Shown here: in pieces, positions 39,218 to 53,302 of the stretch
Layout of the letters: the number at the start of each line of letters is the position of its first letter
Numbering within the stretch: position 1 is the first letter of the stretch
Assembly (NCBI RefSeq): GCF_963665445.1
Contig: NZ_OY762276.1
Location: forward strand, 2,927,501 to 2,991,500
Length of the DNA stretch: 64,000 bases
Reading direction: 5' to 3'
From: an uncultured Desulfobulbus sp.
Lineage (GTDB): Bacteria; Desulfobacterota; Desulfobulbia; Desulfobulbales; Desulfobulbaceae
Notes under the pieces: generated by a model
Database searches by the model: none
What the model was told of the DNA's origin: nothing
The model's input: the letters and a program-made list of their open reading frames with translations, nothing else
Program-made: the position numbers and the translations under genes

Positions 39218-40165
39218 TCAATGGAGTTTCCGTCGCTGCAACCTCGCCAAGCCGCACAGTCCTGTGAAAAAGAGAACGATTGTTGAGGGCTCAGGAACAA
39301 CCGCGGCGGCAAAACTTTTGCCCAATATCTCGTGGGTTGCGGTAGTCGGGTGGAAGTCATCAAAGAAAAGGTATTGGGTGGGATTGTCACAAACAGTCGT
39401 ACCATCAAAACAGGCGTCGCTCACGTTTGTGAATCCGTACGCGGCAGGATCGCTCACGACGGATTGCATCAGTGCTGCAGTATCGAAAAAAATGACTCCA
39501 GCAGGGAGACTCACACGGAGGAGATCGTTGAATGCATCTGAGAGGGCCGAGGCCTCTGCTACTTGGCCAATCCCCTGAAAATAGGGTGTGAGCCCAAGGT
39601 CAGGCATTCCTGGCACGAGAATATTCTTCACGCCCATATTTTTGACCAAATCGCTAATTATACCCAGCTCATTGGTCACAGCTCTCAATATGACAGCTCC
39701 CCAATCAGTACTCCCATCATCCTTAACATCATACGGAGATGGTGCGAGAAAATCATTAGGCCCACCCCAGACGACGAAAAGCCCGGTTGCAATATAGGGA
39801 CTGAGAAAGCTTTTCGTTGCATCGTAAGTGGTTGTCATGCCCGGCAGGGAATGCTGGCCGAAGTCGGTCGTTGTCCCATTGTCGGCGTAGTTGCCGATAC
39901 CGGTTGTCGCTCCGATCCATGCAAAATCAATCAACCCGGTACCGAGCTCCTGCGCAAGGTATTCCACCGCAACCGGACCATTTGATCGACGACCGTTGTA
40001 ATACGGGGCAGGAGGTACGGTCTGTTGGCTAGCGTTATAGAGGTTCCCGTTGTCGGAGAGACTGTCACCGTAAACAATGACGGCACTGTACGAAGAGGCG
40101 TTACTTTCTGCCGTCGTCAGGCAGAACGCCGCAACCAGAATAACAAGAATGCGTTTCATTTCCAT
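39218..40165 (-). CDS. SGNH/GDSL hydrolase with PEP-CTERM anchor
   Basis: Secreted esterase/lipase of 315 residues. Signal peptide at 1-25, GDSLSDNGNLY with nucleophile Ser35, further SGNH blocks (Gly in NGRRSNGPVAVEYLAQ, Asn in WGGPNDF), and the catalytic Asp-x-x-His in DDFHPTTATHE near the end. The C-terminus is a PEP-CTERM sorting signal: VPEPST, hydrophobic helix, RLQRRK. It is therefore handed to an exosortase and surface-linked; no exosortase is in the window. The start ATG 40165 is placed by AAAGGAGGT. Terminator at 39027-39073. Confidence 0.9.
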   Translation of the reverse strand: MEMKRILVILVAAFCLTTAESNASSYSAVIVYGDSLSDNGNLYNASQQTVPPAPYYNGRRSNGPVAVEYLAQELGTGLIDFAWIGATTGIGNYADNGTTTDFGQHSLPGMTTTYDATKSFLSPYIATGLFVVWGGPNDFLAPSPYDVKDDGSTDWGAVILRAVTNELGIISDLVKNMGVKNILVPGMPDLGLTPYFQGIGQVAEASALSDAFNDLLRVSLPAGVIFFDTAALMQSVVSDPAAYGFTNVSDACFDGTTVCDNPTQYLFFDDFHPTTATHEILGKSFAAAVVPEPSTIVLFFTGLCGLARLQRRKLH

Positions 40166-40500
40166 GGCGAAACCTCCTTTCATGTATCTCTATCGTTTTA
40201 GTGGCGTTGCACGGGCAAGGCGAACCCTCCCAACCAAACTCTTCAATAGCATCGAATGATTAGATAGTTATCTCAAGTGAAGCCTCGTTTACAAAACGTA
40301 CAAAACTTATCATTTTTTTCAAGTTTATTCGCGTATCCACTTATTTTTTGCTGAAAAATAGTTTTCCGCCTCTCCCGCCCTGGACGGAAAGGCATGCAGC
40401 TTTTTATCTCCCCTTTCATTTTATCTATTGCGACCTATACTAATTCAAAGCGCTCCATTGCCTCAGCCGACTAAAACTCCACCCAAGTTGGAGGCAATCC
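40166..40500. other. Divergent intergenic region
   Basis: AT-rich region between the hydrolase gene and the lipid-like operon. TATACT at 40435-40440 is a possible -10 box for the operon, without an obvious -35. GGAGG about 10 nt before ATG 40501 is the ribosome-binding site of the first operon gene. Nothing else seen. Confidence 0.4.
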
Positions 40501-41430
40501 ATGGATAACGTTCAGTCGAGCAGGTTTGCTGCACGAATGCGGATCTATTTTGACGAAATGTATCCCATCCCCCAAAGGCTGTTCTTTGCCGCGATTTTTT
40601 CCATCAGCTTTCTCTCCTTTTTGGCCGCCATTCATAACCTTCCCTCTCCCCTGTTCACGCCGTACACTCTGGTTGCCATCTGGGCGGTCTTTTCCTTCAT
40701 GCTGATCCTCCGTCTCATGGACGAGTTGAAGGATCGGGAGATCGATCGACAGTTGTTCGCCCAGCGTCCCCTCCCTTCGGGTCGAGTTCGGGAGAGCGAC
40801 ATCGTGACGAGCCTGACGTCTGTGATCCTGCTGTTCCTCCTGGCGCACCTGTGGATTCCTCGGGTCTTGTGGATCACCTTGATCCTGCTGGGATATTCTT
40901 TATTGATGTTCAAATATTTCTTTATCCCACTGATTCTCTGCAAATATTTACTGCTCAACCTCCTGACCCACAACCCGGTCACCGCTATTCTCTTAACCTA
41001 TCTCGTGGTTCTCTTTGCCACGGAGCAGGGGGTGCCTCTGTCCCGTCTTGACTGGCCCCACATCATGATCCTGATCCTCATGTACTGGTCGGTTCTGTTC
41101 GCCTGGGAAATCTCCCGAAAAATCAGAGCGCCCGAGGAGGAAACCGCCTACGTGACCTACTCGCAAATTCTCGGCCCCAGGGGAGCCGTTGCCCTGGTCT
41201 TGGGGGCGCAGACGGTTGCATTCATCCTCGGCATGTACTTCTACAGGACTTTGCCCCTTTCATGGGTGTTCCCCCTGATCTTAACCTCGGGGTACGTCAG
41301 AATCGTTCTTGCCTACCTCAGGTTTCTCGCGCACCCAAGCTCCACCACGTCGAAATTGCGACCTGTTGCGGAACAATACGGCATCTGCCTGTTCGCGGCG
41401 CAAATCCTGTCAGCCATTCTACCTCTGTAG
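40501..41430 (+). CDS. UbiA-like membrane prenyltransferase
   Basis: Membrane protein of 309 residues with eight or nine helices. The segment RLMDELKDREIDRQLFAQRP (Asp74, Asp78, Asp82) has the spacing of the first Asp-rich motif of UbiA-type prenyltransferases, which bind a prenyl diphosphate through magnesium. The second Asp motif is weaker (AWEISRKIRAPEEE). UbiA proteins attach isoprenoid chains to aromatic or glycerol-based acceptors; archaeal DGGGP synthase, used in ether-lipid synthesis, belongs here. First gene of a seven-gene operon; the next gene starts 16 nt after its stop. Confidence 0.75.
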   Translation: MDNVQSSRFAARMRIYFDEMYPIPQRLFFAAIFSISFLSFLAAIHNLPSPLFTPYTLVAIWAVFSFMLILRLMDELKDREIDRQLFAQRPLPSGRVRESDIVTSLTSVILLFLLAHLWIPRVLWITLILLGYSLLMFKYFFIPLILCKYLLLNLLTHNPVTAILLTYLVVLFATEQGVPLSRLDWPHIMILILMYWSVLFAWEISRKIRAPEEETAYVTYSQILGPRGAVALVLGAQTVAFILGMYFYRTLPLSWVFPLILTSGYVRIVLAYLRFLAHPSSTTSKLRPVAEQYGICLFAAQILSAILPL

Positions 41431-41446
41431 GGGAGCGGGAACCGAC

Positions 41447-44101
41447 ATGACCTCTTCCCTTCTGCTGCATACGACACCGCTGGATTCCATCTCCCACCGT
41501 CAGGCAGGTGGCAAGGGTTGGAACCTGTTTCGACTGAAGGCCGGCCAGTTTCCCGTTCCGCCATGGCTGATCATCGGCAGCACCATGTTCGACACGCTGG
41601 TTGCCCCGCACCGGGAGACCATCGCCACCCTCCTGCAGGGTCTTGATTGTACCGACAGCGCAGCCATCAAGGAGATCTCCGTCCAAATCGGATCCCGAAT
41701 CATGGGGCTTGCGTTCCCCGCCTCGCTCAGCAATGGGCTTGATGAAGCGCTCTCCACCCTGTTTGGCGGGCATGCCTCTTTTTCGGTGCGCTCATCTATT
41801 GTTGGGGAGGACTCTGCCGAGCACTCCTATGCCGGGCAGATGGATTCGTTTCTCAATATCCCCAAGAGCGCGGTGGAAGAGGCGGTCAAAAAGGTGTGGG
41901 CCTCGGCCTTTTCGGTGCGGGCCCTGGTCTACCGGCAACGCGCCCAGATCGGCTTCGACGGCATTTCGGCAGCGGTGATCGTCCAGGAGATGATCGTCCC
42001 CTATGCCTCCGGCGTCCTGTTTTCCCACGATCCACGCTCCGGTGAGTCGCGCTGCGTCATAGCCGCCGGATTTGGCGTCGGCGAGGGGGTGGTCGCCAAC
42101 AAGGTCGAAACCGACACCTACACCGTCAGCAGGGATCTCGTTATTGTCTGCAGAGATATACCGCTAAAAGAGCGACAAATGGTTTTTGCCGAATCGGGCG
42201 GGGTGCGGGCTGAGCCTCTGCCCCCTGAACGGCAGCGGCGGCAGATTCTCTCCGAAGAACAGATCCGGGAGCTGGCAATGATCGGCGCTAGGGGAGCGCA
42301 GTATTTTGGCAGCCCCCAGGACATGGAGTGGGCCTTTGATGCGCAGGGCCGACTCTTTGTCCTTCAGTCGCGTCCCATCGTTTTTCGCCAGCACTCTTCA
42401 GCAAAGGGGAAGACGGTGCGTGTCTGGGACAACGCCAACATCGTCGAAGGCTATCCCGGCATCACCCTGCCCCTCACCTTCAGCTTCATCCGGAACTGCT
42501 ACGAACACCTCTTGCGCAACGCAACCCTCGGCTTTCTCCTCCGCAAGAAGGATATCGGCAAGGATCTTGGCATCTTCACCAGCATGGTGGGGCTGTTGAA
42601 CGGCCGCATCTATTACAATCTCCCCCACTGGTACAAGATGATGTCGTATCTGCCGGGATACGAGCAATACCGGAAATCCTGGGACGAGATGATCGGCATC
42701 CAAGAGGGACTTGCGTGTCCTGCCGCCGAGCTCTCATCCATCAATCGCTGCTACGGTTGGGGAATGGCAATTTTCCGGCTGCTGACGCTCAGGCGAAACG
42801 CAGAAGTTTTTTCCAGGTTGTTTGACCGTTTCTACCAGAAATATGGCGATCTGGACTTCGCTGCCGCTGACGTGGACGACCTGATGGCGACCTACGAGAC
42901 CATGGAAAGGGAACTCCTGCAACACTGGCATCTCACCCTGTACAACGATTACAGCGCCATCAAATACTATGACTGGCTAAAACGCCTCAGTGAGCGCTGG
43001 GGACTGGTTTCTGAACCCAACCTGTACAACGATCTCCTGTGCGGGGAAGAGGGGGTGGAGAGTGTCGCGGTGGTGCATGCCCTCATGCGAATAGCCGAGA
43101 TGTTCCAGGCGGATTCCAGGCTCAAGGATTTGCTCACCCAAAAAGACGACCGGGAAATGTGGGAATACCTCAGTGGCGAGGACGCGCCATTGCAGGTGCA
43201 GGAGGCATTGAAGGTATATCTGCAACGCTACGGGGACCGAGCCGCGGAAGAACTGAAGCTGGAGAAGTCGAGTTATCGCGACGATCCTGCGGCGCTGGTT
43301 GGCCTGATCCGGAACTACGTTTCCCTGGGATTGAGCGTGGACAGGATGAGCACGGAAAATAGACAGATACGGAACGCTGCGGAGCGAAAGATCCGGCATC
43401 CGCTGGCATCCCCATGGAAACGCCTGGTGTTCGGCTTTGTCCTCGCTAACACCCGGAGCGCCATCGCCAACCGCGAGAATATGCGCTTTCGCCGCAGCCG
43501 CATCTTTGGCCTGGCCCGGCGGCTGTTCCTCCGTATGGGGCAACTCTGGTGCGAGCAAGGAATTCTGCACGATGCCCAGGATATCTTCTACCTGACCGTT
43601 GAGGATATTTTCGGGTTTTGCCGTGGGACCTCAGTCAATCACCAGCCCATGCGTCTGGTGGAAATCCGCAGGTCCGAATATGAACGATTTGCGCACATTG
43701 CGGTCGTTGACCGTTTCAGGACCGAAGGCATCCCCACCCTCAGTGCGGTGCATGGACTGGAGACTTGGCCCCATACCTCCAATACCTTGCAGGGGGTGGG
43801 ATGTGTTTCGGGAATCGCCTCCGGGACTGCGAGGGTCATCCATTCCCCGGCCGAACAGGCCGCTGGTGATGGCGATTTCATTCTGGTGACCAAATCAACC
43901 GATCCGGGCTGGGTCTTTCTCATGGTGATGTCCAAGGGCTTGGTGGTCGAAAAGGGCAGCCTCCTCTCCCATACGGCCATTATCGGCAGGGAACTGGGCA
44001 TCCCAACCATTGTCGGCGTCAAGGATGCGACACGGCAGATCCCCGATGGCGCCCGCATCATCATCGACGGTGGAACAGGAGAGATTCGTTGGCTCTTGTA
44101 G
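41447..44101 (+). CDS. PEP-synthase-like phosphotransferase (dikinase family)
   Basis: An 884-residue protein with the N-terminal ATP-grasp nucleotide-binding domain of PEP synthases (GGKGWNLFRLKAGQFPVPPW; SVRSSIVGEDSAEHSYAGQM; EWAFDAQGRLFVLQSRP near 310-330). It ends with the swivelling phospho-His domain (His842 in GSLLSHTAIIGRELGIPTIV, ending IIIDGGTGEI). The PEP/pyruvate TIM barrel is absent and replaced by about 450 unrelated residues, an arrangement like rifampin phosphotransferase. It probably transfers a phosphate from ATP through His842 to an unknown acceptor. ATG 41447 follows GGGGAGCGGG. The stop overlaps the next start. Confidence 0.85.
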   Translation: MTSSLLLHTTPLDSISHRQAGGKGWNLFRLKAGQFPVPPWLIIGSTMFDTLVAPHRETIATLLQGLDCTDSAAIKEISVQIGSRIMGLAFPASLSNGLDEALSTLFGGHASFSVRSSIVGEDSAEHSYAGQMDSFLNIPKSAVEEAVKKVWASAFSVRALVYRQRAQIGFDGISAAVIVQEMIVPYASGVLFSHDPRSGESRCVIAAGFGVGEGVVANKVETDTYTVSRDLVIVCRDIPLKERQMVFAESGGVRAEPLPPERQRRQILSEEQIRELAMIGARGAQYFGSPQDMEWAFDAQGRLFVLQSRPIVFRQHSSAKGKTVRVWDNANIVEGYPGITLPLTFSFIRNCYEHLLRNATLGFLLRKKDIGKDLGIFTSMVGLLNGRIYYNLPHWYKMMSYLPGYEQYRKSWDEMIGIQEGLACPAAELSSINRCYGWGMAIFRLLTLRRNAEVFSRLFDRFYQKYGDLDFAAADVDDLMATYETMERELLQHWHLTLYNDYSAIKYYDWLKRLSERWGLVSEPNLYNDLLCGEEGVESVAVVHALMRIAEMFQADSRLKDLLTQKDDREMWEYLSGEDAPLQVQEALKVYLQRYGDRAAEELKLEKSSYRDDPAALVGLIRNYVSLGLSVDRMSTENRQIRNAAERKIRHPLASPWKRLVFGFVLANTRSAIANRENMRFRRSRIFGLARRLFLRMGQLWCEQGILHDAQDIFYLTVEDIFGFCRGTSVNHQPMRLVEIRRSEYERFAHIAVVDRFRTEGIPTLSAVHGLETWPHTSNTLQGVGCVSGIASGTARVIHSPAEQAAGDGDFILVTKSTDPGWVFLMVMSKGLVVEKGSLLSHTAIIGRELGIPTIVGVKDATRQIPDGARIIIDGGTGEIRWLL

Positions 44102-45222
44102 ACTTTACCTTCAACCCGGATCTGACGGCCGAATTTCTTCGCTTTGGCGAGGAACTGTATCGCGGCGATCCCCACTGGATCCAGCCGTTGCGGGCCGATC
44201 TCGTTGCCCAGTTCTCACCCGACTCTCCCTTTTATCAGGTCCCGGAAAACCGGCACCGGCATTTTCTGGTCAAGCGGGAGGGACAGGTCATGGGCCGCAT
44301 CTCGGCCTTCGTCAACGCTGCCATGCACGATGCCGACGGTACGGCCGTGGCGGCCATCGGTTTTTTTGAATCCCGGAATGACGACACCGTGGCAGAGGAA
44401 CTCTTTACGGCGGCAATCACATGGCTCGGGCAGGAGTCAAAGGCGGCGAAAATTCGGGGGCCGATGAATTTCGATATCTGGCACGCCTATCGTCTGATGA
44501 TCCGAGGGTTCGAGGAGAGGACCTTTTACGGAGAGCCGTACAACAAGCCCTATTACCGGCAGATGTTCCTGAACAATGGATTTCAGGAGCAATATCTCTG
44601 GGACACGGTGGAGGTCACCGGGCAACCGACTTTGGCCAGACTGGCGGCCCGTTACCGGGAACGGTTGACGATGCTGACAGGACACGGGTATCGGTGCAGA
44701 CCGTTTGACCTGCATCGATTGCACAACGAGATCGGCACTTTGCACGAGGTGCTGAGTCGCTCCTTTGGCGGCTTTCTCTGCTTCACCCCAATTGATCTCA
44801 GCAATTTCGAGGCGTTGTTCGCACCGCGGCTGCGCTGGGCCCTGCATCCCCGACTCTGCTATTTTTGGTACGACAGCCAGGGGCTGGTGGCCGGATTTGC
44901 CGCCGCCTTTCTCGAATTATCCCAGGCGATTCGCGTTCTCAAGGGCGGATCCGGTTTCTTGGGAAAAATACGCTTTCTGCTCAAACGACGCCGTGTCGAC
45001 ACCATCAACTTTTTTATCAGCGGGATCACTCCGGAGGAAAAGAGGAAGCGAAGCGGCCTGGGCGGGGCCATGTTTTCCCACGTCGTGGGCAACATCCTGG
45101 ACTTGGGTTTTGAGCGTCTCCTGGTTCCCCTGATGGTCAAGGACAATCTGGCGCACAGATTTCTGGTGCATGATGCCCCGCCAGCGACGCGGGAATACGC
45201 CCTCTACGAATACAATCGATGA
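44089..45222 (+). CDS. GNAT-like acyltransferase homologue
   Basis: A 377-residue soluble protein. Residues about 1-150 and 240-377 have the look of tandem GNAT-like folds (HRHFLVKREGQVMGRISAFV; GPMNFDIWHAYRLMIRGFEE; PYYRQMFLNNGFQEQY). Similar uncharacterised N-acetyltransferase-like proteins occur in many bacteria. Start is TTG 44089 with GGAGAG 6 nt upstream, overlapping the preceding gene by 13 nt; its stop overlaps the next start (ATGA). The acceptor is unknown; in this operon, acylation of a lipid precursor is conceivable. Confidence 0.68.
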   Translation: MALVDFTFNPDLTAEFLRFGEELYRGDPHWIQPLRADLVAQFSPDSPFYQVPENRHRHFLVKREGQVMGRISAFVNAAMHDADGTAVAAIGFFESRNDDTVAEELFTAAITWLGQESKAAKIRGPMNFDIWHAYRLMIRGFEERTFYGEPYNKPYYRQMFLNNGFQEQYLWDTVEVTGQPTLARLAARYRERLTMLTGHGYRCRPFDLHRLHNEIGTLHEVLSRSFGGFLCFTPIDLSNFEALFAPRLRWALHPRLCYFWYDSQGLVAGFAAAFLELSQAIRVLKGGSGFLGKIRFLLKRRRVDTINFFISGITPEEKRKRSGLGGAMFSHVVGNILDLGFERLLVPLMVKDNLAHRFLVHDAPPATREYALYEYNR

Positions 45223-46139
45223 AGCTCTTACCTGCGATCCGCTATTACGATCGATACCGTCAAAGGGTGGAACAGGAGCAGGTCTATGCGGATTCCCTGC
45301 TCGCCTGGGCCTACAACACCCGCTGCGGACGCTGGATCCTGGCCCTCGTCCTGAAGCAGCCCTGCTTTTCCCGGTTGTACGGCTGGTACTGCAGGCAACC
45401 GATGAGCCGGCGGATGATTCGACCCTTTGTGAAAAAGATGCATGTCGATACCACGGAGATCACCCGTCCATTGGCGAGCTATGGCAGTTTTCACGCCTTT
45501 TTCACCCGTGAGATCGACCTCGGCAAACGCCCCGTGCACCCTGAAGGCCGGGTGTGCATCGCACCGACCGATGGCAAGGTGCTGGCCTATTCCCATGTCC
45601 GGGCAGGCACGACCTTCCGGGTCAAGCGCAGTGCGTTCAACCTGGAGAGCTTTCTCGCCGACAGCGGTCTGGCCAGGGACTACAACGGCGGATCAATGAT
45701 GATCGGCCGCCTCTGTTTTCGGGAGTATCACCACTTCCACTTTCCCGACTCCGGTGTTCCCGGCGCAGCAGTCTCCATTCCCGGATTCTTGCACGCCGGT
45801 GGTCCGTATGCCGAACATGGCCTGGTCCCCTTCTATGCGGAAAATCATCGGGTCAGGACACCCTTTGAGGCCGATCATTTCGGACCAATGCTGCTGGTCG
45901 AGATCGGCGCCATGGCCGTGGGATCGATCCACCAACTCTATCGACCAGGGACAAGGGTCGGCAAGGGGGAGCGAAAGGGATTCTTTGCGCCGGGCGGCTC
46001 CACCGTGGTCTTGCTCTTCAAGAAAGGCGTCATTGATTTTGACGAGGATCTTCTGGCAAACACCGAACGCGGCCTGGAAACCTCCATTCGCATGGGCGAC
46101 TCCATTGGGCGACAAGGCAGATGCAAGGATGTGCCCTGA
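45219..46139 (+). CDS. psd: Phosphatidylserine decarboxylase family protein
   Basis: A 306-residue enzyme of the phosphatidylserine decarboxylase family, which makes the pyruvoyl cofactor from a Ser in a conserved LGST motif. Here the motif is FAPGGSTVVLLF with Ser261; Gly replaces Leu. Other family blocks are FFTREIDLGKRPV, APTDGKVL, REYHHFHFPDSG and VGSIHQLYRPG. Archaea use homologues to decarboxylate archaetidylserine. It overlaps the previous gene (ATGA) and is followed after 25 nt by HMG-CoA reductase. The substrate could be phosphatidylserine or a modified lipid. Confidence 0.9.
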   Translation: MKLLPAIRYYDRYRQRVEQEQVYADSLLAWAYNTRCGRWILALVLKQPCFSRLYGWYCRQPMSRRMIRPFVKKMHVDTTEITRPLASYGSFHAFFTREIDLGKRPVHPEGRVCIAPTDGKVLAYSHVRAGTTFRVKRSAFNLESFLADSGLARDYNGGSMMIGRLCFREYHHFHFPDSGVPGAAVSIPGFLHAGGPYAEHGLVPFYAENHRVRTPFEADHFGPMLLVEIGAMAVGSIHQLYRPGTRVGKGERKGFFAPGGSTVVLLFKKGVIDFDEDLLANTERGLETSIRMGDSIGRQGRCKDVP

Positions 46140-46164
46140 ACCTCAACCTCGAGGAAACGAGACC

Positions 46165-47427
46165 ATGACGACGCCATTCAAAAAGATCGAAGCGTTGGCG
46201 GAGCTGCTGTTGCACAACCGGACAGTCGAGGAGTTGCGGCAGGTCTTAATACCCGACCCTGCCCGCCCCTATTCTCACTTCCCCAATTTCGCCGGATGCG
46301 GTCGGGACGAGCTCATCCATCGGTGGCATTGGCTCACCGAGAAGGGGGGCGACATTCCTCCCTCCCTGTATGCTGGTGAGGATCTGGAGGTCTACCATGC
46401 CAATATCGAGCATTGCATCGGCACCGTGAAAATCCCGGTGGGCATCGCCGGACCGGTGCGGGTCAACGGCTGTTTCGCCAAGGGTGATTATCTGCTGCCC
46501 CTGGCGACCACCGAGGCCGCACTGGTCGCCAGCTTTCACCGGGGCGCGGTGGTCCTGTCCAAAGTCGGGGGATGCTCGACAGCCCTTTTGACCGAGGGCG
46601 TCACCCGTTCGCCAGGCTTTGCCTTTGATTCGCTGATCGAAATGCTCATCTTTTCTCACTGGGTGCTCAGCCACCGGCCCGAGTTGCAGGAAGCCGCCAA
46701 CCGGACCACAGGGCATGGCCGCCTGGAAGACATCAGGTTTGCCGCCCAGGGCAACCTTCTCTATCTCCTCTGCGAATACTCCACGGGCGATGCCGCCGGT
46801 CAAAATATGGCCACCATCGCCACCCAGGCCCTGTGCGAACATCTGGTGGACAACGCTCCGGTGAAGCCCAAATACTGGTTGGTGGAGGCCAATGCCTCCG
46901 GCGACAAAAAGGCCTCGGCCCAGTCCTTCATGTCCGTTCGCGGCAAAAAGGTGACTGCCGAGGCCCTCATCCCCGGCCACGTGGTGGAGCGGTTCCTGCA
47001 CACGACAACCGACAGGATGGTCGAGGCCTGGCGGATGTCGGCCTTGGGCGGGGTGATGACGGGAACCATCGGTATCCAAGGACATTATGCCAATGGCCTG
47101 GCTGCCCTGTTCATTGCCTGCGGCCAGGATGCCGCCTGTGTCGCGGAGGCGGCGGTGGGGGTCACCCGGTTTGAAAAACGGCCCGACGGCGCCCTCTATG
47201 TTTCCGCCACCCTGCCCAATCTGATCGTCGGCACCATCGGCGGCGGGACGAAATTGCCGAGTCAACGGGCTGCCCTGGAGATCATGGGGTTGGCCGGCAG
47301 CGGGCATGCCAGGGCCTTTGCCGAGGTATGCGCCGCTGCGGCCCTGGCTGGCGAGGTTTCCATCGGTGGTTCCATGGCCGCGGGAGATTTCACCAGGGCA
47401 CATGTCGACCTGGCCCGCAAACGATAA
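46165..47427 (+). CDS. Class I HMG-CoA reductase
   Basis: A 420-residue hydroxymethylglutaryl-CoA reductase, which makes mevalonate from HMG-CoA with NAD(P)H. Conserved blocks: ENCIG-like HCIGTVKIPVGIAGPV, TTEAALVASFHRGAVV with the catalytic Glu, STGDAAGQNMATIA, EANASGDKKASAQS with the catalytic Lys, ACGQDAA with Asp, IGGGTKLPSQRAAL, and GSGHARAFAE with His. The short loop features fit the eukaryote/archaea type (class I). The start ATG 46165 is chosen because GGAAACGAG lies upstream and the longer frame lies inside psd. Most relatives of this bacterium use the MEP pathway, so a lone HMG-CoA reductase is notable. No other mevalonate gene is in the window. Confidence 0.92.
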   Translation: MTTPFKKIEALAELLLHNRTVEELRQVLIPDPARPYSHFPNFAGCGRDELIHRWHWLTEKGGDIPPSLYAGEDLEVYHANIEHCIGTVKIPVGIAGPVRVNGCFAKGDYLLPLATTEAALVASFHRGAVVLSKVGGCSTALLTEGVTRSPGFAFDSLIEMLIFSHWVLSHRPELQEAANRTTGHGRLEDIRFAAQGNLLYLLCEYSTGDAAGQNMATIATQALCEHLVDNAPVKPKYWLVEANASGDKKASAQSFMSVRGKKVTAEALIPGHVVERFLHTTTDRMVEAWRMSALGGVMTGTIGIQGHYANGLAALFIACGQDAACVAEAAVGVTRFEKRPDGALYVSATLPNLIVGTIGGGTKLPSQRAALEIMGLAGSGHARAFAEVCAAAALAGEVSIGGSMAAGDFTRAHVDLARKR

Positions 47428-47471
47428 CCAAGGGAGACCCAATGAAGATACCGATGTCCTGATCGAGGGGA

Positions 47472-48590
47472 ATGGCCATGGAGGCAAAAATGATGGAGAC
47501 CGAAATTACCGGCAAGGTTGCCTTCGATACAATCCGTTATGCCCAGTGCTGGGAAGACGCGGATATTTTGCTGGAGGGGTTGGATATTCAAAAAGGAGAC
47601 GTCTGCCTGGGGATTGCCTCGGCCGGTGACAACTGCCTCTCCATGCTCACCCGTCATCCCGCGATAGTGATCGCGGTGGATATCAACCCGGCCCAATTGG
47701 CCTGCCTGGAACTGCGGGTGGCCGCGTACAAATGTCTGCACCATCACGAACTGCTCGAACTGATCGGCTCCCGTCCCAGTGAACAACGGATGCAACTTTT
47801 TGAGCGGTGCGCTCCTGCTTTGCCCGAGAAAACCGCGGCCTTTTGGCGGGAGCGCAAGCCGTTGATCGAACAGGGAATTGGTGGCGCAGGCAGGTTTGAG
47901 CACTACCTGCGTCTTGCCCGTCGCTCTGTACTGCCCCTGATTCACTCTCGCACCAGGATCGACCAGCTATTCCAGGTCAAAGGACAACAGGAATGCCGGC
48001 TATTTTACGATCAGCGTTGGGACAACTGGCGCTGGCGCTTGTTGTTCAAGTTCTTTTTCAGCCGCTGGCTCATGGGGAGACTGGGGCGGGACCCCTCGTT
48101 TTTTGCCTATGTGGAGGGTTCCGTGGCGGATCGGATTTTATCGCGAACGCGGCATGCCCTCCGGGAATCGAATCCGGGAGAGAACCCCTACCTGCATTGG
48201 ATTTTGACCGGAACCCATGGCGAGGCCCTGCCGCATGCCCTGAGACCTGAACATTTTGCCGTGATCCGGGACAACATCGATCGACTGGAATGCCGTTTGG
48301 CATCGCTTGAAAGCACACTGGAAATCGAGGGGAAAAAGGGCCTGGACAGACTAAATCTCAGCGATATTTTTGAATATATGTCAGAGAAAGGTGCCAACAA
48401 GGTCCTGGAAAACGTCGTGAGGGCAACGCGCGGCAATGGTCGCCTGGCCTATTGGAACATGCTGGTGCCCAGGAGTTGTCCGGCGGAGTGGAACGAACGG
48501 GTACGGCGGCTGCGGGAGCTAGGGGATCGTTTGCATCAGATTGACAAGACTTTTTTTTACACCATCTTTGTGGTCGAAGAGGTGCTATGA
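47472..48590 (+). CDS. BtaA-like DUF3419 3-amino-3-carboxypropyl transferase
   Basis: A 372-residue protein of the DUF3419/BtaA family. BtaA transfers the aminocarboxypropyl group of S-adenosylmethionine to diacylglycerol to form homoserine lipid. Seen here: IRYAQCWEDADILLEGLDIQ, the SAM-binding LGIASAGDNCLSML and VIAVDINPAQLACLELR, and the C-terminal LSDIFEYMSEKGANKVLENV. It starts at ATG 47472 with GAGGGG upstream, 44 nt after HMG-CoA reductase, and overlaps the next gene (ATGA). No BtaB methyltransferase is nearby, so the head group may stay unmethylated or the acceptor may differ. Confidence 0.87.
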   Translation: MAMEAKMMETEITGKVAFDTIRYAQCWEDADILLEGLDIQKGDVCLGIASAGDNCLSMLTRHPAIVIAVDINPAQLACLELRVAAYKCLHHHELLELIGSRPSEQRMQLFERCAPALPEKTAAFWRERKPLIEQGIGGAGRFEHYLRLARRSVLPLIHSRTRIDQLFQVKGQQECRLFYDQRWDNWRWRLLFKFFFSRWLMGRLGRDPSFFAYVEGSVADRILSRTRHALRESNPGENPYLHWILTGTHGEALPHALRPEHFAVIRDNIDRLECRLASLESTLEIEGKKGLDRLNLSDIFEYMSEKGANKVLENVVRATRGNGRLAYWNMLVPRSCPAEWNERVRRLRELGDRLHQIDKTFFYTIFVVEEVL

Positions 48591-49909
48591 GCCCCTGGAT
48601 CGGCATCCTGATCGCGACCGGTGCATTTTTCGGACTGATCATCGGATGCAGGGTTTGGGCGCGACCGCTGGGCCTTTCGCCGGAATTGAGCCGAAAGATC
48701 ATTCATATCGGCTTGGGATTGACGAGCGCCTGTTTTCCCTTTCTTTTCTCCACCCTGTGGCCGGTTATCTTTATCGCGGCAACAGCCGTCCTGATGCTGG
48801 GCATGATCAGATTGCTGCCGGCATTAAAAAAGTCGTTAGGGCCGCCCCTGCATGGCGTCGGTCGCCCATCCCTCGGAGAAATCTATTTCCCGGTGGCGGT
48901 GGCCACCGTCTGGATCGTTGCCAACAAACACCCCCTCTTCTACAGCCTTTCCATACTGGTGCTGGCCCTGGCGGACGCCTTTGCGGCCCTTGTCGGCACA
49001 CGATACGGGCGCAAGCGATACACGACCCTGGAGGGCTACAAGACCTGGGAGGGCAGTGTCGTCTTTTTCCTGATCACGTTCCTGTGCATCCATATCCCCT
49101 TGCTGCTGCTCACCGATATCGGAAGGGCCCAAAGCCTGCTACTCGCCCTGCTGATTGGCGTCTTGGTGACGATCATCGAGGCCGTCTCCTGGCGGGGGCT
49201 CGACAACCTCTTCATCCCCATCTCGGTCTGTATTTTTCTCGATGCCTATCAGCAGGCCGATGTGCAGCAGCTCTGTTTCAGGCTCGGGTTGATCCTGCTC
49301 ACCCTGGCCCTGCTGTTCGCGGTCAGATCACGGACGAATTTTGACGATGCCTCGTTGCTCGGGGCTAGCCTTGTTCCCTTTCTGGTGGTTACGATCGGCG
49401 GTTGGCAATGGGCTGTGGCCCCGGTCATTGTTTTTGCCAATTACCTGTTTCTCGATATAAGCAGGAAGAAGAACACAGGAAATACCTACACGATCAACGC
49501 TCTCCTCGCCGTGACCATGCCGGGATTCTTTTGGTTGATGCTCTATCACCGTTACCAGGATGAGATTTATTTTTTCTCGTATTCCTTAGGCTACATGGCT
49601 GAGTTGATCGGGGCATACCTGACCCAGTGGGCGGTGCTGGATGATGAAAGATCGTTTCTAACGCTCTCCGTCACGGGGGCTTCGTTTGGGTACTGCATGA
49701 TTATGGTGCCGTATTTGTTGTTTTCGTCGGGTAATTTTTCCTTCGCCATCGTGGGACTGTCCGTCGTGATCGCTCTTTGCAGTGGCCAGTTGTTGTGCAG
49801 CCTGGTGCCTGTTCTCAGAACCTTCTCAGCGATCACAGACAAATTTTTGGTGCAGGGGATAATCGGTTTTGTGGCTTCGATTGTGCCGTTGTTTGTCCCC
49901 TTGGGATGA
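48587..49909 (+). CDS. Dolichol-kinase/phytol-kinase-like membrane protein with extra half
   Basis: A 440-residue polytopic membrane protein. The first 210 residues match the dolichol kinase/phytol kinase/CTP-transferase group: LSRKIIHIGLGLTSA, LALADAFAALVGTRYGRKRY, KTWEGSVVFF and the final EAVSWRGLDN. These enzymes phosphorylate polyprenols or diacylglycerol with CTP. The second half adds about seven helices with a polar segment (RTNFDDASLLGASLVPFLVV; NTGNTYTINALLAV) similar to DUF92-type membrane proteins. It is the last gene of the operon. Activation of an isoprenoid or glycerolipid alcohol is the likely job. Confidence 0.8.
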   Translation: MSPWIGILIATGAFFGLIIGCRVWARPLGLSPELSRKIIHIGLGLTSACFPFLFSTLWPVIFIAATAVLMLGMIRLLPALKKSLGPPLHGVGRPSLGEIYFPVAVATVWIVANKHPLFYSLSILVLALADAFAALVGTRYGRKRYTTLEGYKTWEGSVVFFLITFLCIHIPLLLLTDIGRAQSLLLALLIGVLVTIIEAVSWRGLDNLFIPISVCIFLDAYQQADVQQLCFRLGLILLTLALLFAVRSRTNFDDASLLGASLVPFLVVTIGGWQWAVAPVIVFANYLFLDISRKKNTGNTYTINALLAVTMPGFFWLMLYHRYQDEIYFFSYSLGYMAELIGAYLTQWAVLDDERSFLTLSVTGASFGYCMIMVPYLLFSSGNFSFAIVGLSVVIALCSGQLLCSLVPVLRTFSAITDKFLVQGIIGFVASIVPLFVPLG

Positions 49910-50055: not shown

Positions 50056-51540
50056 TCAGGCTCTCTCATCACTGAGGCCATTAAATTTTGGCGGTTGTTG
50101 AAATCCCCCCGCAATTTTTTCAATATGCTCAGCTATGCTGAGCAAACGGAAATCATCCCATCGTTTTGCCTGCATTTGCACTCCGATGGGAAGCCCCTCT
50201 TCAGATCTCCCGATAGGCAAAACCACAACCGGATTTCCGGCCAAGGCAGAGGTACAGTTGTACATGCCCATGGCCATGGAATACGATACTTTTTTGCCAT
50301 CGACGTTGAGCGGCTTCCCCATCCTCTGGTGAGGAAATGCCGTGGTCGAGGAGACTGGACAGAGCCAAACATCATACTTTGAGAAAAAGGCCTCTGTCAG
50401 TGCAACAATTTTTTCTCTGCAGGACAAGGCCGTAAAGTATCTTTTTGAATTCATTCTCAAGCCAGCCGCAAATCCTTTTGCAAATTCTCCCGTGCCATAT
50501 ATCGATCGCATCAACCCCAGGCTGAATATCCACGTCAGCAACCGTATTTTCGGGTCTCCATGTGAGACGAATTCAAAACCAAATATATGGCCCCACATTT
50601 CCACCGCCTCTTGAAAATCAATTGTTTGAGGTGCGTCATGGGTCACCTGACAGCCAGCTTTTTTTAACTTTCCAACCAAATCGACAATGGCCTCCTTCAC
50701 ATCTGCGTTGACCGGAATGTTTCCAAGTTCAGCGGTCCAGCCCACTTTAAGATCCGCCAAGCCGTGCACTGGCTTTGCATAATCGAAAGCGATGGGAGGA
50801 ATCTGCCACTGGTGCTCATCCGGCCCCCATATCAACGAAAGGGCCAATTGGAGATCTTGAACACATCGCGCCATGGGGCCATTCATCACAAGATTGCGAA
50901 TACATCGCGGATATCCAGGTGCATGCGAAACACCTCTATCGGAAACACTCTTTTCTGTTGGCCGAATGGCACAGACACCACAAAAATGCGCGGGGACACG
51001 GAGCGATCCGGCCACATCGTTGCCAAATTCAAGAGAGGTGAATCCGGAAGCGAGGGCAGCGGCAGCACCGCCTGAGCTTCCACCGGAGGTATAGCTTACA
51101 TTCCAAGGATTGTTCGTTCGACCAAAGTGAGGATGTTTGCATTGCCAATCCAACCCAAGAAAGGGCAAATTTGTCTTCCCATAAACAAGAGCCCCGGCTT
51201 GCCGAAGCCTTGCAACGACTGTTGCATCCTTCTTGGGTATATAGTTCATAAATCGTGAGCTCCCTTTACTCGTAGTGAGCCCTTCTGTGTCGTAATTGTC
51301 CTTGACGGTTATGGGGAGTCCATGCAATGGACCTAATTCTCTCCCAGAAGAAATTGCCAGGTCTGCCTCTTTGGCCTGCAATCTCGCTCGTTCCCTATCC
51401 AGTGTTACAATTGCATTGATTTTGTTATTATATTTTCCAACCTGCCGTAAATGCGCCTCCAACAGGTCGACACATGAACATTGCTTTTCCCTGACCATCT
51501 TTATGATTTCTGTTGCTTGCTTGAAAACAATATTTTCCAT
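50056..51540 (-). CDS. Amidase signature family hydrolase
   Basis: A 494-residue amidase with the Ser-cisSer-Lys triad: Lys in GLPITVKDNYDTEG (about 80), cis-Ser in SYTSGGSSGGAAAALASG and the nucleophile Ser in GNDVAGSLRVPAHFCGV. Family members hydrolyse amides from fatty-acid amides to the Gln-tRNA transamidation step; the absence of gatC/gatB nearby and the divergent GND in place of GSD argue against GatA. The start ATG 51540 follows GGAAG. An IS66-type element was inserted 53 nt upstream and may have cut it from its promoter. Confidence 0.88.
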   Translation of the reverse strand: MENIVFKQATEIIKMVREKQCSCVDLLEAHLRQVGKYNNKINAIVTLDRERARLQAKEADLAISSGRELGPLHGLPITVKDNYDTEGLTTSKGSSRFMNYIPKKDATVVARLRQAGALVYGKTNLPFLGLDWQCKHPHFGRTNNPWNVSYTSGGSSGGAAAALASGFTSLEFGNDVAGSLRVPAHFCGVCAIRPTEKSVSDRGVSHAPGYPRCIRNLVMNGPMARCVQDLQLALSLIWGPDEHQWQIPPIAFDYAKPVHGLADLKVGWTAELGNIPVNADVKEAIVDLVGKLKKAGCQVTHDAPQTIDFQEAVEMWGHIFGFEFVSHGDPKIRLLTWIFSLGLMRSIYGTGEFAKGFAAGLRMNSKRYFTALSCREKIVALTEAFFSKYDVWLCPVSSTTAFPHQRMGKPLNVDGKKVSYSMAMGMYNCTSALAGNPVVVLPIGRSEEGLPIGVQMQAKRWDDFRLLSIAEHIEKIAGGFQQPPKFNGLSDERA

Positions 51541-51635
51541 ATTCGCTTCCTCTCCATCTGCCTGCCCGAGCCAAGAACAATGCAAATAACTTTGTAACTA
51601 TTCAGCTCACCATGCTGAATTTGTTAAAAAAGTGC

Positions 51636-51862: not shown

Positions 51863-53302
51863 GTGACAATCGATAACATCAATGTAGAAGAGACAATCCA
51901 GCGGGTTACCAGCTTGATAGCCGCTGAGCAGGATCTTTCACCGGCGCTGAAAAGCAGCCTGGAAGTTCTGTTGCTCTTGGTTTCATTGTTGTTGAATCGC
52001 CTTGGTCTCAATAGCAAAAACAGTAGCAAGCCGCCGTCGACCGATCCTTTCCGCACTAAAAAACCTCGTTCTGCGAGTGGTCGCAAACCCGGCGGTCAGC
52101 CTGGTCATGCCGGAACGACACTGAGACCTGTCAGTGATCCCGATATCATCAAGGAGATTGTTATCGATCGCAGCCTGCTTCCCCCTGGGCGCTATCGCAG
52201 CAGCGGCCACGAGGCACGCCAGGTCATTGACCTGGACATCACCACCCTGGTGACCGAATGGCGTGCCGAGATCGTGGTGGATGAACAGGGCAGACGTCAT
52301 GTCGCACCGTTTCCGGAAGGGATCACCAGGCCGGTACAGTATGGCATCGGCGTGAAGGTCAATGCTGTGTATATGTCGCAGTTCCAGATGGTGCCATATA
52401 ATCGGATCGAGGACCACTTCCTGGAGCAGATGGGTATTCCGGTCAGTAGCGGTTCCATTGTCAATTTCAACCGTGACGCCTTTGATCGTCTGACCTTCTT
52501 CGAGCAGTGGGTGCAAAAGGCGTTGCAACAAGAGGACTTGCTTCATGTCGACGAGACAGGGATCAACATCGGTGGCAAACGATGCTGGCTGCATAATGTT
52601 TCCAGTCTTGGGTTAAGCCATTTCGCTCCCCATGCAAAACGGGGCGGTGAGGCAATAGAGTCCATCGGTATCCTCCCAGGTTTCCACGGGATACTCTGCC
52701 ACGATCATTGGAAACCCTATTTCCATTACGGCCGGGTTCATGCCTTGTGCAATGCGCACCATTTGCGTGAACTGGAACGGGCCTGGGAGCAAGATGGTCA
52801 ACAATGGGCCCAGCAGCTCAGCCTGCTGCTCAAGGAGGCCAATGAGATGGTCCATGGCGCTGGCGGATGTCTCGATTCCGCCACGGCAGAGCAGTACAGG
52901 GTGCGATATCGAGAACTCTTGCAACAAGCCGAACTGGAATGCCCGGCACCGGCCCCTAAGCTCAACAACGGAAAACGGGGACGAATAGCCAAATCGAAAT
53001 CCAGAAACCTGCTGGAGCGATTACAGAGCTTTGAAAACGACGTTCTTCGGTTCTTGGACGATCCGCTGGTGCCTTTCACCAATAACCAGGCAGAAAATGA
53101 CCTGCGGATGATCAAGGTGCAGCAGAAGGTGTCAGGGTGCTTCCGTTCAATGGAAGGTGCAGAGACTTTCTGCCGTATCCGTAGCTACATCACGACCTGT
53201 AGAAAACAAGGCATTACTGCGTCCAAAGCACTGCGCTTACTCTTCCAGGGCAGATGGCCCGATTTTATGAGTACGCTTGTGGTTTCGGTTTGTGCTGAAT
53301 AG
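51863..53302 (+). CDS. IS66-family transposase
   Basis: A 479-residue DDE transposase. N-terminal leucine-rich helix (about 30-47), then the basic and proline-rich zinc-finger leader (NSSKPPSTDPF; RKPGGQPGHAG), then the catalytic core with LLHVDETGINIGGKRCWLHN, ILCHDHWKPYF, ALCNAHHLRELERA and a final NNQAENDLRMIKVQQKVSG. The start is GTG 51863 with GGGGTTGGA upstream. The stop lies inside the right inverted repeat region. It looks intact. Confidence 0.93.
   Translation: MTIDNINVEETIQRVTSLIAAEQDLSPALKSSLEVLLLLVSLLLNRLGLNSKNSSKPPSTDPFRTKKPRSASGRKPGGQPGHAGTTLRPVSDPDIIKEIVIDRSLLPPGRYRSSGHEARQVIDLDITTLVTEWRAEIVVDEQGRRHVAPFPEGITRPVQYGIGVKVNAVYMSQFQMVPYNRIEDHFLEQMGIPVSSGSIVNFNRDAFDRLTFFEQWVQKALQQEDLLHVDETGINIGGKRCWLHNVSSLGLSHFAPHAKRGGEAIESIGILPGFHGILCHDHWKPYFHYGRVHALCNAHHLRELERAWEQDGQQWAQQLSLLLKEANEMVHGAGGCLDSATAEQYRVRYRELLQQAELECPAPAPKLNNGKRGRIAKSKSRNLLERLQSFENDVLRFLDDPLVPFTNNQAENDLRMIKVQQKVSGCFRSMEGAETFCRIRSYITTCRKQGITASKALRLLFQGRWPDFMSTLVVSVCAE

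Follow-up and report, generated by a model that had tools for sequence, protein, structure and literature searches.

A conserved seven-gene operon of an uncultured Desulfobulbus encodes an HMG-CoA-reductase-like protein with an altered substrate site and may direct synthesis of a ceramide-like aminolipid

Betaine lipids of the diacylglyceryl-trimethylhomoserine (DGTS) type are synthesized by BtaA and BtaB. Archaeal ether lipids are assembled by geranylgeranylglyceryl phosphate synthase (GGGPS), digeranylgeranylglyceryl phosphate synthase (DGGGPS), CarS, and archaetidylserine decarboxylase. In plant phytol salvage and tocopherol prenylation, VTE5 and VTE6 convert an alcohol to its phosphate and then its diphosphate, which a UbiA-type transferase uses. 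Mechanisms are also known for rifampin phosphotransferase (RPH) and PigC. For the Caulobacter ceramide pathway, the enzymes named are Spt, CerR, CerS, AcpR, and AasR (PMC11324152).

The stretch of DNA analyzed here (hereinafter referred to as the window) comprises 64,000 nucleotides from the one-contig, 5.08-Mb genome of an uncultured Desulfobulbus sp. (contig NZ_OY762276.1, positions 2,927,501 to 2,991,500). Seven genes at 40501 to 49909, all on the + strand, encode a UbiA-like transferase, a dikinase-type phosphotransferase, a tandem-GNAT protein, a phosphatidylserine decarboxylase (PSD) homolog, an HMG-CoA-reductase-like (HMGR-like) protein, a BtaA-like protein, and a dolichol-kinase-like (DolK-like) protein. 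This operon is conserved in other bacteria, is mosaic in its make-up, lies in a genome without the mevalonate genes tested for, and encodes an HMGR-like protein whose substrate site is altered. The enzymes come from known superfamilies, and the predicted pathway lacks defining features of the mevalonate route, of DGTS synthesis, and of the canonical ceramide pathway. A preliminary description of this DNA was right about the operon and most likely right to guess at an unusual amino-headed lipid. We tentatively propose that the product is an amide/ether aminolipid that has two chains, resembles ceramide, and is formed with no serine palmitoyltransferase, its chemistry being deduced throughout from the predicted enzymes.

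Loci were collected by scanning named genomes with a single query, the BtaA-like protein. The best 80 of 95 relatives were kept, and a Roseinatronobacter plasmid copy that this query also picked up, at 48% identity, was added as the 81st; nine plasmid BtaA relatives at 22–27% identity, three of which had other neighbors, were omitted. Neighboring genes were assigned by profile. Most loci were contigs of metagenome-assembled genomes (MAGs), and isolates were also represented. The recurrent core set consisted of HMGR-like, UbiA-like, dikinase, BtaA-like, DolK-like, tandem-GNAT, and AMP-ligase genes. All seven were found in 44 of the 81 loci, 40 of the 81 having them in core order, in which other open reading frames (ORFs) may intervene (e.g., L012, L058). 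Room for the whole set (>5.4 kb on the upstream and >4.6 kb on the downstream side of BtaA) was available in 45 of the 81 loci, and 36 of these 45 held all seven genes; the incomplete ones were L023, L033, L035, L042, L063, L078, L081, L083, and L084. Three more Bacteroidota clusters, reached via UbiA rather than BtaA, also held all seven (L162 to L164, the AMP-ligase gene of L164 running off the retrieved sequence). The homologs thus occur together in most of the loci with room, a point on which the preliminary description had made the pathway idea depend. Pairwise distances of the seven genes correlated at 0.71–0.92 across the 44 complete loci, where host kinship alone would give some correlation, and none of 2,000 Mantel permutations was as high as the observed value for HMGR and BtaA (44 loci). 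Including PSD, eight families are named here, and no further ORF family recurred in more than eight members around the 81 loci.

By its gene content, the window operon is a variant of this cassette in which PSD is present and the OleC-like AMP-ligase is absent. PSD was found in only one of the 81 loci (L042) and otherwise in the window and in L161; of the gene list first given for the operon, the other six families recur, whereas PSD belongs to the variant and not to the core. Other deviations included a dikinase-BtaA fusion in L062 (7247-11185) and a dikinase-AMP-ligase fusion in L065 (6879-11135), the latter followed by what reads by eye as an acyl carrier protein (ACP). Variants without HMGR or DolK were seen in Saccharibacteria and Ruminococcus-type loci (L080, L081, L083, L084), and a half-length UbiA-like protein together with a PP-loop (QueC-like) protein and two AMP-ligases was present in L080, L081, and L084.

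A BtaA tree was built from 67 of the 81 rows, excluding L004 and 13 rows outside 300–420 aa. Its 66 labeled rows carried 11 phylum labels with at least 18 label changes against a minimum of 10; the labels are those of the submitters' titles, and a label change seen more than once does not prove transfer. The cassette appears to have spread between phyla. Its distribution was patchy. Of 95 genomes near that of the window, two encoded a BtaA-like protein, one of them being the window's own; in the phylum of L073, the count was 21 of 387 (E 1e-60), with the genome of L073 among the 21. No plasmid relatives of the window UbiA were found, and no viral contigs with the GNAT were confirmed. In total, 230 plasmid records were related to the dikinase; the sets examined, two from Streptomyces and one from Methylocystis, had other neighbors, so that a dikinase by itself does not mark the cassette.

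The window operon combined genes of different affinity. Compared with Desulfobulbus rhabdoformis (L008), identities were 70% for HMGR, 64% for BtaA, and 50% for DolK, and 27% for UbiA, 26% for GNAT, and 32% for the dikinase. Compared with the Bacteroidetes MAG locus L042, they were 51% for UbiA, 38% for GNAT, 50% for PSD, and 32% for the dikinase. When 394 genomes of the phylum of L042 were searched with its UbiA, five matched, its own included: one more of the PSD type (L161) and three canonical ones. In L161 (Bacteroidota), genes for a fatty-acyl-reductase-type (FAR-type) protein, a diacylglycerol-kinase-type (DAGK-type) protein, UbiA, dikinase, GNAT, PSD, and BtaA follow one another, and its UbiA-dikinase-GNAT-PSD block is in the window's order, with 45, 43, 40, and 49% identity to the window, respectively. 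UbiA, GNAT, and PSD are shared by the window, L042, and L161 at 38–52% identity. Within the window's own phylum, a PSD-type UbiA was present in one of 395 genomes, that of the window. As HMGR-BtaA-DolK resemble Desulfobulbus and UbiA-dikinase-GNAT-PSD resemble Bacteroidota clusters, it would seem, as far as three loci indicate, that a block of the PSD type crossed between phyla and took the place of parts of a canonical operon in the window.

The class I HMGR-like protein (46165-47427, +, 420 aa), a predicted acyl-thioester reductase, matched PF00368 with 352 bits and stayed under the NCBI cut-off for HMG-CoA reductase (NADPH) (TIGR00533; 305.2 vs. 441.8 bits). Its closest solved relative was archaeal 6hr7 (407 bits). 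From 50 matches, 48 sequences longer than 300 aa, the window's included, were aligned with three reference HMGRs. Equivalents of the catalytic residues E559, K691, D767, and H866 of human HMGR were invariant in 48/48, as were those of R590 and K692, and that of D653 was kept in 45/48. The position of human Ser684 was Glu, that of Lys735 was Met, Val, Thr, Leu, or Ile, and that of Met657 was Gln, each in 48/48 of the HMGR-like proteins, where the references keep Ser, Lys, and Met. With the numbering anchored at D767, Ser684 and Lys735 are the residues that hold the HMG carboxylate in human HMGR. In the window genome, HMG-CoA synthase was not found, a single GHMP kinase was present, which we take to be IspE from its sequence signature, and IspG of the methylerythritol phosphate route was identified. 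Among 33 carrier genomes searched (that of L008 not among them), HMG-CoA synthase was matched in two, in one above the cut-off. Mevalonate supply was rejected on the missing synthase, the lone IspE-like kinase, the presence of IspG, and the HMG site altered in 48/48, and with it the earlier suggestion that this HMGR opens the mevalonate route. The protein is most likely a reductase for an acyl thioester other than HMG-CoA, and is a clean example of how the substrate site of an HMG-CoA reductase can be rebuilt.

The UbiA-superfamily membrane transferase of PSD-variant type (40501-41430, +, 309 aa) scored 31.5 bits against PF01040, just under the cut-off of 34.2, and the best PDB match of its family profile was DGGGP synthase 6m31 (5.6e-10). 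The first Asp motif was kept as D-[E/D]-x-K-D-xxx-D, with D, K, D, and D in 60/60 and the variable position E in 59 and D in 1. UbiA, PSD, and possibly CTP-enzyme superfamilies of archaeal ether-lipid synthesis recur in the operon; unlike in that pathway, however, the second Asp motif is absent from the operon UbiA and the HMGR is not linked to mevalonate. Neither GGGP synthase nor glycerol-1-phosphate dehydrogenase was among the seven operon genes (the genome was not searched for either). The archaeal link of the preliminary description comes down to superfamily likeness; the operon has nothing else that is specific to archaeal lipids.

The dikinase-type phosphotransferase (41447-44101, +, 884 aa, ATG start) is RPH-like, with clear PPDK_N and PEP-utilizers matches, i.e., an ATP-grasp and a swivelling His domain. 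It lacks a phosphoenolpyruvate (PEP) barrel, as in RPH and the PigC-RedH ligases. His842 and the ATP-grasp residues were invariant in 26/26. Its family profile matched RPH structure 5hv2 with 448 bits, whereas the central substrate region (~307–505 of the profile) was unaligned to RPH. For the DolK/phytol-kinase-like integral membrane protein (48587-49909, +, 440 aa), a predicted CTP-dependent lipid-alcohol kinase, no credible Pfam match was obtained (best Gaa1, 0.018). Five of 36 family members touched DUF92, Foldseek returned nothing at E 0.001, and the C-terminal half was poorly conserved. The proposed order of alcohol kinase, second kinase, and UbiA is that of plant phytol salvage; it differs in that the second kinase would be an RPH-like dikinase and in the added genes for an amine and its N-acylation.

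Possible stand-ins for two of the enzymes were encoded in several loci. NAD_binding_4 (FAR-type) proteins occurred near BtaA in L042, L078, L082, and L161, none of which showed HMGR; neither the window nor any of the 49 HMGR-carrying loci among the 81 showed such a protein. DAGK-type proteins were near BtaA in L082 and L161, and choline-kinase-like proteins in L081, L083, and L084, all five without DolK. FAR-type proteins seem to stand in for HMGR, and DAGK or choline-kinase types for DolK; these swaps suggest that the two predicted steps are reduction of an acyl thioester and phosphorylation of an alcohol.

The BtaA-like DUF3419 protein (47472-48590, +, 372 aa), a predicted S-adenosylmethionine (SAM) 3-amino-3-carboxypropyl transferase, matched PF11899 with 236 bits over residues 18–368. 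The operon shares this family with DGTS synthesis, but no BtaB-like methyltransferase partner was present among the seven window genes. A DUF3419-methyltransferase pair was identified in Rhizobium leguminosarum (L152), its DUF3419 protein at 26% identity. On a Deefgea piscis plasmid (L005:8010-9496), a DUF3419 gene immediately precedes one for adenosylmethionine decarboxylase, an arrangement that would fit decarboxylated SAM as the aminopropyl donor there.

The PSD homolog (45219-46139, +, 306 aa) matched PF02666 with 154 bits and remained under the NCBI cut-offs (316 vs. 371 for PRK00723 and 99 vs. 111.75 for TIGR00163). It contains a GGST stretch like that of PSD self-cleavage sites. It is an operon-specific paralog, one of three copies in the genome, 50% identical to the PSD of L042; its two paralogs elsewhere in the genome reach 30% (313 aligned columns) and 22% (just 71). 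The AMP-ligase that usually makes up the seventh core gene matched PRK09274 in 32/32 and olefin beta-lactone synthetase models in 29–30/32, although the member tabulated fell below the olefin beta-lactone synthetase cut-offs. Its PDB ranking (gramicidin synthase with two domains summed, then 4-coumarate ligase) was drawn on for nothing. A second operon-type AMP-ligase in the window genome was considered and rejected, the best match (338 bits) being OleC-like. That gene sits in a row which, by eye, we read as OleA, OleB, OleC, and OleD (contig C1, ~86.7–91.2 kb; L126:6657-11241), with FabF-, FabG/FabI-, and carotenoid-desaturase-like ORFs upstream; the row is likely a long-chain olefin cluster.

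The tandem-GNAT protein (44089-45222, +, with an uncertain TTG start) had no Pfam match of its own, while 33 of 38 members of its alignment matched Acetyltransf_1 at E 0.1. Alignment with bacterial ceramide synthase (bCerS)-type proteins by hhalign gave 7.4e-37, and by homology it is predicted to be a bCerS-type N-acyltransferase, the only GNAT of this kind in the window genome. In regions around relatives of the window GNAT, a serine-palmitoyltransferase-like (AOS-like) gene was present in 13 of 16, with an epimerase gene too in 10 of 16. The operon resembles the bacterial ceramide pathway in having a GNAT of the same superfamily and, in some variants, an AMP-ligase/ACP partner and a lipid-kinase-type gene. 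In contrast, the window operon contains neither serine palmitoyltransferase (Spt; no genome-wide search for this enzyme was made) nor CerR, and the amine is expected to come from SAM via the BtaA-like protein. Further, MMPL/RND-type exporter genes were present in clusters L042, L074, L082, and L085, and a CDP-alcohol phosphatidyltransferase gene followed dikinase-GNAT in L132 (3742 bases). A class V aminotransferase in L132 reads, in our judgment, like 2-aminoethylphosphonate transaminase (PhnW-like); with its dikinase, GNAT, CDP-alcohol phosphatidyltransferase, and aminotransferase, L132 is possibly a phosphonolipid relative of the operon.

In the pathway proposed for the ceramide-like aminolipid, the HMGR-like protein would reduce some acyl-CoA, though not HMG-CoA, and so yield a long-chain alcohol, perhaps an allylic one, which the DolK-like kinase would phosphorylate once and the dikinase a second time, and the UbiA-like enzyme would transfer the chain to an acceptor. 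The BtaA-like protein would move a SAM-derived 3-amino-3-carboxypropyl group to a lipid hydroxyl. In the window variant, the PSD homolog may take off the carboxyl to leave an aminopropyl group, a place held in most other clusters by the AMP-ligase, and the bCerS-type GNAT would N-acylate the amine. More tentatively still, the cassette, which spans 11 or more phylum labels, may define a class of bacterial membrane lipids not described so far. The chain alcohol would come from a neofunctionalized HMGR and be activated by two dissimilar kinases, a relative of UbiA would form the lipid bond, and a SAM-derived aminopropyl or aminocarboxypropyl group, N-acylated by a relative of ceramide synthase, would take the place of the serine-derived sphingoid base, as a ceramide-like route free of serine palmitoyltransferase. 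If true, this would point to an unrecognized membrane lipid whose seven-gene operon occurs in isolates and MAGs of many phyla. The natural swaps (HMGR or FAR-type; DolK, DAGK, or ChoK-type; AMP-ligase or PSD) make the function of each step a testable prediction, and the operon genes could serve as markers for assigning orphan lipids of environmental bacteria.

Several observations weigh against this proposal. The second Asp motif of UbiA, DxxxD, was replaced by ExxRK..E in 60/60, which leaves the prenylated product of the preliminary description unsupported, and a saturated alkyl diphosphate would not ionize like prenyl donors. A neutral acyl substrate does not account for the invariant Glu at the Ser684 position. 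The DolK assignment is based on motifs of the family, and the fold evidence is weak. The mutual exclusion of FAR and HMGR comes from few, partly truncated loci; with 32 of 81 loci lacking HMGR, it has a chance of ~0.06 for the three FAR loci among them (L042, L078, L082). The three choline-kinase loci (L081, L083, L084) are close kin, and a DAGK-like match was also found in L069, where DolK is present, 8.6 kb from BtaA on the opposite strand. No recognized reductase was seen in the clostridial and the Ruminococcus/Saccharibacteria variants, and the Planctomycetota loci L019 and L023 were without DolK, GNAT, and AMP-ligase on the contig. In addition, the window genome contained no operon-type AMP-ligase, and the BtaA of L161 was only 35% identical to that of the window.

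The altered reductase site is explained better by a homoserinol (pseudo-sphingoid) route, which we nevertheless consider unlikely. The BtaA-like protein would add an aminocarboxypropyl group to a lipid alcohol, the AMP-ligase would activate its carboxyl, and the HMGR-like protein, its Glu holding the ammonium, would reduce that carboxyl to CH2OH; N-acylation by the GNAT would then give a 2-amino-alcohol ceramide mimic, PSD being an alternative end for the carboxyl. The charge inversion of the site (Glu in 48/48 with Lys735 lost) speaks for this route, as does the joint change of UbiA, GNAT, and the AMP-ligase/PSD choice in the PSD variant. The PSD variants themselves, however, fit it worse than they fit the ceramide-like aminolipid reading: the window has HMGR and PSD without an operon AMP-ligase, and L042 and L161 pair PSD with a FAR-type protein. 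The usual substrates of FAR enzymes are fatty acyl thioesters. Moreover, an AMP-ligase was seen without HMGR in L063, L065 to L067, and L074. The window operon could also be a decaying or hybrid remnant, in which HMGR-BtaA-DolK were left from a canonical operon, UbiA-dikinase-GNAT-PSD came in, and HMGR is unused. The mosaic identities, the missing operon-type AMP-ligase, and the absence of HMGR from L161, which carries the same block, are in its favor, but seven intact frames, tight spacing, a GC3 (GC content at third codon positions) of 65–76%, and intact HMGR catalytic residues make it rather improbable.

It is unlikely, to about the degree of the homoserinol route, that the operon makes a diffusible specialized metabolite, such as a signal or an antibiotic, instead of a membrane lipid. 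The patchy distribution of BtaA-like proteins (2/95 and 21/387 genomes) and the plasmid copy would suit such a product, as would the prodiginines made by the dikinase's kin PigC and RedH and the genes near L012, L014, L018, L032, and L054 that we take by eye to be P450-like. On the other hand, the cassette has no nonribosomal peptide synthetase or polyketide synthase core, two of its enzymes are predicted to be membrane-embedded, and its GNAT is of bCerS type. The MMPL-type exporters in four related clusters and the CDP-alcohol transferase in L132 lead us to favor a membrane lipid. It is highly improbable that mevalonate feeds an isoprenoid supply from which a prenylated phospholipid of archaeal type is made. 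The HMGR, UbiA, and PSD superfamilies, with DGGGP synthase as the closest solved UbiA relative, are what points to it; set against them are the lack of HMG-CoA synthase here and its match in only 2 of 33 carriers, the IspE-like GHMP kinase beside IspG, the HMG site altered in 48/48, and the absence of the second UbiA motif in 60/60.

No publication on this gene combination was found in a search outside which most subscription papers and bioRxiv preprints lay, and it may be described already. The papers in which that search met DUF3419 concern, judged by title, algae, plants, or a plant smut.

As to the layout of the operon, gene starts were refined, and neighboring genes overlap by up to 13 nt or lie up to 44 nt apart. 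The seven tightly packed genes reported in the preliminary description are real: the ORFs lie in their place on one strand, and the arrangement is no chance one, since its genes are conserved elsewhere. Matches to PS_Dcarbxylase, HMG-CoA_red, and DUF3419 were well above Pfam cut-offs in the window proteins. A promoter scan gave 5 matches vs. 4.7 expected, and terminator-like elements (24 vs. 10.8 expected) were left unused. Directly upstream and divergent from the operon, a GDSL-lipase-like protein (by eye) with a PEP-CTERM-type tail is encoded at 39218-40183 on the minus strand. Downstream, ~2 kb from the operon, an ORF reads as an IS66-type transposase (51863-53302); its neighbor on the minus strand, at 50056-51585, is amidase-like and low in GC3.

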